Positions 13,674-15,126 of a DNA stretch of 49,371 bases are shown in pieces. Numbering within the stretch: the first letter of the stretch is position 1; every line of letters begins with the position of its first letter. Location: assembly GCA_008080835.1 (NCBI GenBank), contig VMDK01000116.1, positions 1-49,371 of the forward strand, read 5' to 3'. The translations under genes and the position numbers were made by a program. The notes below the pieces were generated by a model, which worked only from the letters and a program-made list of their open reading frames with translations, was not told the DNA's origin and ran no database searches. Source of the DNA: Sphingobacteriia bacterium. Its GTDB lineage: Bacteria; Bacteroidota; Bacteroidia; NS11-12g; UBA9320.

Positions 13674-13949
13674 TTAGCTCGGGGATTCATCCCGAGACGG
13701 AACTATCACTGCCTCCAATGCCTGAGCATTTTTACTCACCATCCGTTCGAATATCGTGGCAAAGACCCCACCTGTAAGGAACATCAGCGTGCCATAAATT
13801 GCCGGAACAAGCAAAATTCCCGGGAACAGAGCAAGTGCCCCAAGGGATGCCACGAACAACGCAAGTGAGCCGTTTTGTGTAAAGAATACACCACTAAAAG
13901 TGAATTCCTGTCTGAAAAAATTGATAGCATCTTCAGGGAGAAAGACAGA
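13674..13949 (-). pseudogene. Possible 5'-truncated membrane protein fragment
   Basis: Reading frame without ATG runs from the upstream stop at 13950-13952: SVFLPEDAINFFRQEFTFSGVFFTQNGSLALFVASLGALALFPGILLVPAIYGTLMFLTGGVFATIFERMVSKNAQ... Confidence 0.35.
13678..13696. repeat. REP-like palindrome / possible terminator between convergent ORFs
   Basis: CTCGGGGAT-TC-ATCCCGAG, ATTCAT centre as in the RAYT-adjacent palindromes at 34041-34404. Confidence 0.4.
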
Positions 13950-14088
13950 TTATGTTATGACTTTTTTGCTTTAACTAAGGAAAAATAAACAAGCCTATTT
14001 TGACCCCACTCTTATAACGGTGTAAGTAAAATTCGCTAATGACCTTCAATACCCGAACTTTATTAATAAGTTGGCAAACATTAATAAA

Positions 14089-14664
14089 ATGAAATATTCA
14101 TCTTTAATCATATTCTTTACCGTAAGCACACATTACTTAAGTGCTCAAGATTCAAGTTTCTCTCAAGAGATTGGATATGGTAGTGCAGGATATAGAGTGC
14201 CGGCAGGGAAAACACTTTTAATTCACACTGCAGAAGGTACTGATAGGAAGATTTTAATTAACGGTGGCACATACTACAGCCTAACGCAAAATAGCAACTC
14301 TTTTAATTCCCCTATCGTGGCAAAAAGTGGGAGCACGGTAAGTGTAACCTCATCTGGTGGATTTCCTTCCTCTTCTAATATTACAGGCATGTTAAAATCA
14401 GAAAACACTTCAAGTTCAAATGATGAAAAAACATCGTCAAACACACTTAATATTTTTCCAAACCCTACAACAAATTATCTTTCTATAGAGTATGGTAGAA
14501 TTAAAATAAATGAAATACAAATTATAGCCACGACAGGAAAACCAATACGAACTTTTAAGTTAAACTTTAGTAGAATCAATATTTCTGATATTCCGAACGG
14601 GATTTACTTCGTTAAGCTATTTACTGATCAAACAGTAATAACACAAAAAATTGTAAAGTACTAA
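14089..14664 (+). CDS. Small secreted protein with T9SS type A sorting domain (cassette gene)
   Basis: MKYSSLIIFFTVSTHYLSAQDSSFS signal peptide; C-term LNIFPNPTTNYLSIEY...DIPNGIYFVKLFTDQTVITQKIVKY. Confidence 0.75.
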   Translation: MKYSSLIIFFTVSTHYLSAQDSSFSQEIGYGSAGYRVPAGKTLLIHTAEGTDRKILINGGTYYSLTQNSNSFNSPIVAKSGSTVSVTSSGGFPSSSNITGMLKSENTSSSNDEKTSSNTLNIFPNPTTNYLSIEYGRIKINEIQIIATTGKPIRTFKLNFSRINISDIPNGIYFVKLFTDQTVITQKIVKY

Positions 14665-14670
14665 AAACGA

Positions 14671-14726
14671 TTTGCCAACAAAGTGTATAGTGCATACCCT
14701 AAGGGATACGCACCATACACAAACCG
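14671..14726 (+). repeat. attC-like recombination site
   Basis: R''-like TTTGCCAAC (14671-14679), inner arms GTGTATAGTGCATACCCTA / AGGGATACGCACCATACAC (14683-14720), then AAACCG; the circularised cassette would supply R' GTTGGCAAA, perfectly complementary to R''. Confidence 0.6.
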
Positions 14727-15081
14727 TAATCAATACACCCATAAAAGCTGCTCTTTAGGGGGCTATTTAAGCTAGGCTTAATTGAAACCTTTGTAGATTG
14801 AGAATAGAAAATCTACCGACATGAGTAAAAGATCTAGTTCGAGGGCTTTGTCGCACTCATTCTTGAAGACATCTGAGAACCTTGGAGCAAATAACGTAGA
14901 CATCCGAACTGCATCCCTCTGAGCCAACAAAGCCTCCAAGACCATCTGAAAAACACGATGCCTCAGCAAGAATTGAAATTCAAGAAGCAAAACACATTAA
15001 CTCAGAATAATCCCACCCTAGTCGACCATGCTCAAGTAAAAGGCGCCTCAACACTAATATGCAAATTGTATGCAAATAAAA

Positions 15082-15107
15082 AAGCCCCTACATTTCTGTA
15101 GAGGCTT
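15082..15107 (-). terminator. Hairpin terminator downstream of tRNA-Pro (minus strand)
   Basis: aagcccctaca-tttc-tgtagaggctt with adjacent A-tract (T-tract on the minus strand). Confidence 0.6.
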
Positions 15108-15126
15108 AACTGCTTGATTTACAATG

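Follow-up and report, generated by a model that had tools for sequence, protein, structure and literature searches.

A solitary integron-type gene cassette in a Sphingobacteriia genome, its conserved family of attC-type sites and a candidate patchless recombinase

The defining feature of the integron integrase IntI is a patch helix, which contacts the extrahelical bases of attC sites, and the origin of this helix has been described as a chicken-and-egg paradox, the helix being useless without attC and vice versa (Escudero et al. 2016, PMC4792948). Among the systems closest to the locus described here are the single attC sites and CALIN recognized by IntegronFinder (PMC9024848), which share with it one attC-type site, a like-oriented ORF, and the absence of a neighboring intI. 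A CALIN is also carried by the Polaribacter phage P12002L. Of its sites, IntI1 recombined P12002L_attC2 into attI1 but failed with P12002L_attC1 (Qi et al. 2023, PMC9892861). Here we analyze a unit at positions 14070-14726 of a 49,371-nucleotide stretch of DNA (the window), which had been predicted from its letters to be an integron-type cassette. All coordinates of that prediction hold, and the features are as follows.

14070..14726, + strand: integrated gene cassette (inverted 9-mers and a hairpin at one end; the far-end partner is a family-wide property)
14070..14078, + strand: R' box GTTGGCAAA, start of the cassette (exact reverse complement of 14671-14679)
14089..14664, + strand: single ORF, 191 aa (Pfam Por_Secre_tail, 43.8 bits)
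14671..14679, + strand: R'' box TTTGCCAAC (from the sequence, inverse complement of 14070-14078)
14671..14726, + strand: attC-type recombination site, cassette half (covariance models, BLASTN to other replicons)
14683..14720, + strand: imperfect L''/L' hairpin (family covariation, strand folds)
14726..14726, + strand: 3' junction base G (from the sequence)

The unit comprises 657 bases, with crossover expected after G14070 and the cassette proper at 14071-14726. Its complementary R'' and R' boxes, with their AAC and GTT triplets, lie at opposite ends and pair exactly over 9 bp, and they have no further exact copies anywhere in the window, which bears out the perfect inverse complementarity that had been claimed. 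The hairpin is set off by the spacers AAA (14680-14682) and AAACC (14721-14725); its top strand contains two A-C mismatches, and its bottom strand forms an uninterrupted 17-bp stem. The ORF has the same orientation as the attC site and abuts it, and its stop codon does lie 6 nt before the R'' box, as originally read. The unit is also AT-richer than its surroundings, as had been stated (GC content of 31-39% versus 42-54%). When the two ends are joined as in a circle, the resulting site folds with -15.5 kcal/mol (z score of -5.4), a value equaled by 0 of 200 shuffled sequences. The empty site predicted for the cassette at 14070-14726 is AATAAG|TAATCA (AATAAGTAATCA), with relatives in the comparison set no closer than the genus level. 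The flanks (13680-14069 and 14750-15120) hold no ORF of at least 80 aa and have the look of decayed genes, with a hydrolase gene on one side and a tRNA-Pro/Arg/Ser cluster on the other.

By itself, this anatomy is weak evidence: block-shuffled windows contain on average 0.73 matches to a loose criterion (inverted 9-mers accompanied by a short hairpin of any kind). A repeat with a hairpin is thus not rare by this criterion, which speaks for a rival reading, that of an immobile small gene with a transcription terminator hairpin and, flanking it by chance, a 9-bp inverted repeat. Because the combination is within chance by the loose criterion, we sought relatives of the hairpin. BLASTN searches with the 81-bp end of the cassette matched the same 54 bp in the megaplasmid p1 of Flammeovirga kamogawensis (85%, E value = 5e-8) and in Synechococcus phage S-CBS2 (81%, E value = 9e-6), with a weak match in Persicobacter pPP2, and a consensus query also picked up Synechocystis plasmids. 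On two of the latter, pSyn7338-1 and pSYSM (L313 and L314), single family sites are each adjoined by an Rpn-family nuclease gene. A pattern scan found the hairpin in Bacteroidota genomes and in viral contigs. We built successive covariance models, R1 and then R2 (from 103 sites), and the window site scored 74.8 bits with R2. With R3, in whose training the window took no part, it scored 75.7 bits (E value = 4e-18), although part of the structure line of R3 is shifted against the L stem, so that this score rests mainly on sequence. The covariance check proposed for the site was therefore positive. Rfam gave zero families at the gathering score, with Atu_C9 below threshold (26.6 versus 40 bits).

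We also evaluated the base pairing of the L stem across the 103 sites, counting pairs on a named structure. Compensatory changes were found at 12 of the 16 pairs, and changes on both sides numbered 134, compared with 30.5 in shuffles (0 of 500 shuffles had as many); shifting the pairing by one base as a control destroyed it. RNAalifold run on the gappy alignment A2 predicted zero pairs. The flanks follow one layout in all members: a variable sequence ending in AAC, 3 nt, the hairpin, about 5 nt, and GTT followed by a variable sequence. An exact 8-mer partner of R'' occurred 100 to 1300 bp upstream in 12 of 25 members, against a null expectation of ~0.7 (0.71; maximum of 4 in 2000 permutations). 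The R' box at the start of a unit thus pairs with the R'' box at its end in family members, which is the anatomy of a cassette, with an imperfect, structure-conserved hairpin between the boxes. These results show that the window hairpin belongs to a conserved family widespread in Bacteroidota genomes, in plasmids of Bacteroidota and Synechocystis, and in phages. Several other searches were set aside. The pair TTGCCAAC..GTTGGCAA gave only chance pairs in the window's order and in viral contigs, because each cassette has R boxes of its own; the 17-mer TTTGCCAACAAAGTGTA occurred in viral contigs at a count near chance expectation; and an apparent hairpin in L126 was rejected as a cassette.

Family members also stand head to tail in arrays (L290, L184, L340, and L394). 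The longest run lies on a phage contig from IMG/VR (L290, 9108-14324), where about 14 family sites follow one another and successive sites are linked by complementarity between the R' box of one (GTTGTAGTGC) and the R'' box of the next; no integron integrase was found in that record. Persicobacter pPP2 carries an array of 9 sites, and L340, from genome G053, one of 7 to 8 sites. Units similar to the one in the window therefore do exist elsewhere, and the related sites form true cassette arrays. In the window's order, the nearly closed genome G053 has two arrays (L394, 7708-15619, and L340, 9830-16311), one of them directly behind a patchless recombinase (see below), with T9SS, CAP-domain, and other probably secreted proteins as cargo. 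A terminator hairpin would leave the outer boxes and the arrays without explanation, and the hairpin sequence is found again in different phyla and in phages, where it shows covariation and is accompanied by R boxes that vary and by partners at the far end; we regard the terminator reading as refuted by the partners, the covariation, and the arrays and give it hardly any probability. A transposon-like or MITE-like element bounded by short terminal inverted repeats is equally improbable: 9-bp inverted repeats do lie at the ends of the unit or close to them, but one of them lies 47 bp inside it and is followed by a hairpin, no target-site duplication was seen beyond the shared G, and related units are arranged head to tail with each R' box complementary to the next R'' box. 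The comparative evidence is what makes the cassette observation decisive, and 14070-14726 is almost certainly a solitary integron-type cassette with a functional-type attC.

The site itself is of a particular type. At the two mismatch positions, A-C was found in 91 of 101 and 94 of 101 sites, corresponding to a T-G wobble on the bottom strand, and the bottom strand was the more stable fold in 96 of 103 sites. One-sided bulges were present in 24 of 103 family sites versus 6 to 7 of 8 sites from IntI arrays. The bottom-strand stem in the window is unbroken and so lacks the extrahelical bases (one-sided and unpaired) that mark the bottom-strand L stem of a canonical IntI-type attC. Its R boxes, GTTGGCA/TGCCAAC, differ from the consensus GTTRRRY/RYYYAAC at two positions, and we take this 7-mer consensus as a tendency and no defining feature. 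The description of the site as a textbook attC is accordingly withdrawn, given that A-C mismatches replace the extrahelical bases and the R boxes are nonconsensus.

Next, we looked into which recombinase might serve these sites. No integron integrase exceeded the TIGR02249 cut-off in the window or in the whole of its genome (best E value = 8.2e-21; assembly 94.6% complete, 149 contigs), no recombinase remnant was detectable in the window, and the genome holds one family site (one match at E ≤ 10), that is, a single attC without a complete integron of intI plus attI. The cassette is thus solitary and without an integrase over the cut-off, in agreement with the original prediction. Likewise, the TIGR02249 cut-off was exceeded in 0 of 108 genomes of the window's order and in 0 of 34 records, most of which carry family sites, although a sample of 395 genomes from the phylum included 105 that exceeded it. 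Within the window's own class, only one genome with a true IntI was among the matches listed for the phylum sample.

These counts bear on a further reading, in which an ordinary IntI cassette from a classical integron elsewhere was inserted at a secondary site by a true IntI acting in trans or by uptake, and in which the patchless recombinases are unrelated neighbors in variable islands. The occurrence of IntI in the phylum sample speaks for it, as does the recombination of P12002L_attC2 by IntI1 in Escherichia coli (PMC9892861), since P12002L sites match the family (up to 49 bits with R2), with the restriction that the two attC sites tested could not be mapped to the family matches in P12002L. 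Genome G112 carries both an IntI and family-like sites. The absence of IntI over the cut-off from the order and from the site-carrying records argues against it, and G112 is alone among 20 true-IntI loci in having family sites nearby; with 19 of 20 loci lacking one, we rejected true-IntI arrays as the source of the window's attC type. In G112, three long family-like sites (L163, 3034-5711) lie 4 to 6 kb before the true intI in the same orientation. This genome is possibly a link between the IntI and patchless systems. With IntI1 able to recombine a P12002L attC, and with a true IntI and family-like sites occurring together in G112, mobility can be explained without the patchless enzyme.

The TIGR02249 matches below the cut-off in the order were tyrosine recombinases of 350 to 380 aa. 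The example that we studied (L335, 377 aa) scored 227.8 bits with NF040815 (XerA; cut-off of 220) and 196.9 bits with TIGR02249 (cut-off of 265). The recombinases beside family arrays lack the IntI patch insert, and the predicted structure, which is nearest to archaeal XerA and then to IntI4, has only a short loop at the patch position (281-297). They therefore have neither the additional domain nor the TIGR02249 score of an IntI, and in a tree, they fall outside the single clade of IntI, which is supported at 100/100. Residues R231, K256, H321, R324, H347, and Y356, whose catalytic roles we presume from knowledge of the family, were invariant or nearly so in 10 sequences, as in a tyrosine recombinase, and the C terminus is IntI-like (KSPxDxL).

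We chose 42 loci solely by their recombinase. A family attC was present at 9 of them and, at all of these but L397 (8 loci), lay downstream in the same orientation; three further such loci (L335, L336, and L350) were first found via attC. Across the order, there are 60 family sites in 108 genomes, and because the genome-wide site density was obtained with stricter filters than the local scans, the enrichment near recombinases is approximate. A conserved attI-like end, TATAAACAA|GTTR, was present directly behind the recombinase gene, within 230 nt of its stop, at 21 of 37 loci, compared with 3.9% of random windows, and its R' box had an exact downstream partner in 13 of these 21 (null expectation of 1.28, maximum of 6 in 2000 permutations). 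It was absent behind recombinases of other branches (L415, L418, L423-L425, and L428-L430). We read these loci as an integrase gene followed by an attI and an array that share its orientation. An attI-like end with a paired first cassette so far above chance is not what unrelated island neighbors would be expected to show, and we consider the insertion of a classical cassette by a true IntI unlikely; the patchless XerA/IntI-like enzyme is probably the cognate recombinase of the attC family.

The ends of the window cassette can be compared with these loci. On its left, the sequence TATTAATAA|GTT is similar to the attI-like end of the recombinase loci, TATAAACAA|GTT, and its solitary 3' end reads G|TAATCA in place of G|TTGGCA. 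The right junction, G|TAA, suggests a secondary site. Of the earlier proposal, the solitary integration stands; one detail was off, the right flank being G|TAA and not G|TT. Three sites end in G|TA rather than G|TT (L343 at 8568, L348 at 8141, and the window at 14726), perhaps reflecting a secondary target preference.

The cargo protein has a hydrophobic, signal-peptide-like N terminus, as judged by eye, and its C terminus is a type A T9SS sorting domain (residues 122 to 189). We found no relatives of the protein outside the sorting domain, only matches of the tail elsewhere, and its AlphaFold model was poor (pLDDT of 44). Five ORFs with T9SS tails occur in three arrays of the window's order (two each in L335 and L394 and one in L340). 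Since such proteins recur in several arrays, the window cargo is typical of the order and not the unusual one that it had been taken for, which suggests that exported (T9SS) proteins are regular cassette cargo in Bacteroidota.

The best explanation overall joins the cassette with the patchless recombinase, and we give it a probability of roughly 0.8. The bottom strand of the site would fold and a tyrosine recombinase would cut at the triplet G|TT; as a circle, the cassette with its T9SS-exported protein would insert at a G|TA secondary site. Since the genome is without a recognizable integron integrase, the cassette presumably arrived from outside or was left behind. The usual recombinase in the order would be the patchless XerA/IntI-like enzyme whose gene immediately precedes an attI-like site and an array. 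A patchless recombinase next to sites most of which have no extrahelical bases is what a matched pair would look like, and site and enzyme may fit each other. We lean towards a second kind of integron in Bacteroidota, in which a patchless Xer/IntI-like recombinase would lie upstream of attI and a same-orientation array, and the attC sites would lack extrahelical bases and show an invariant T-G wobble at two places of the bottom strand; we are similarly inclined to think that its cassettes travel into plasmids and phages and that the window cassette is a stray. There is a real chance that this is a distinct integron class. If so, arrays mostly without extrahelical bases beside a patchless recombinase would be either the missing intermediate or a parallel solution, and they would account for many of the attC clusters without an integrase that occur in Bacteroidota and in the phages of these bacteria. 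A cassette-capturing system with a patchless recombinase looks not yet described as such: we found no description of a patchless integrase with cassettes in the literature searched, whose coverage mostly leaves out subscription journals.

Compared with known single attC sites and CALIN (PMC9024848), the window type has A-C mismatches and no bulged extrahelical bases, its R boxes deviate from GTTRRRY, and its family is associated with a patchless recombinase. The P12002L CALIN is phage-borne and clustered, whereas the window cassette is chromosomal and solitary. Classical Bacteroidota integrons with a true IntI (such as L132/L165 and G150) share with the family a tyrosine recombinase, attC arrays, and the GTT crossover triplet, but their IntI has the patch insert and their attC sites are more often bulged on one side. 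Archaeal integrons (Ghaly et al. 2022, PMC9668308) resemble the patchless loci in having attI directly downstream of the integrase gene; however, archaeal IntIs are described with the IntI-specific additional domain, which the patchless recombinases are without. XerA/Xer (NF040815; PDB 4a8e and 5hxy) is the nearest family and fold of the patchless recombinase, which differs from it in its IntI-like KSPxDxL C terminus and in the attI-like site and cassette arrays directly downstream.
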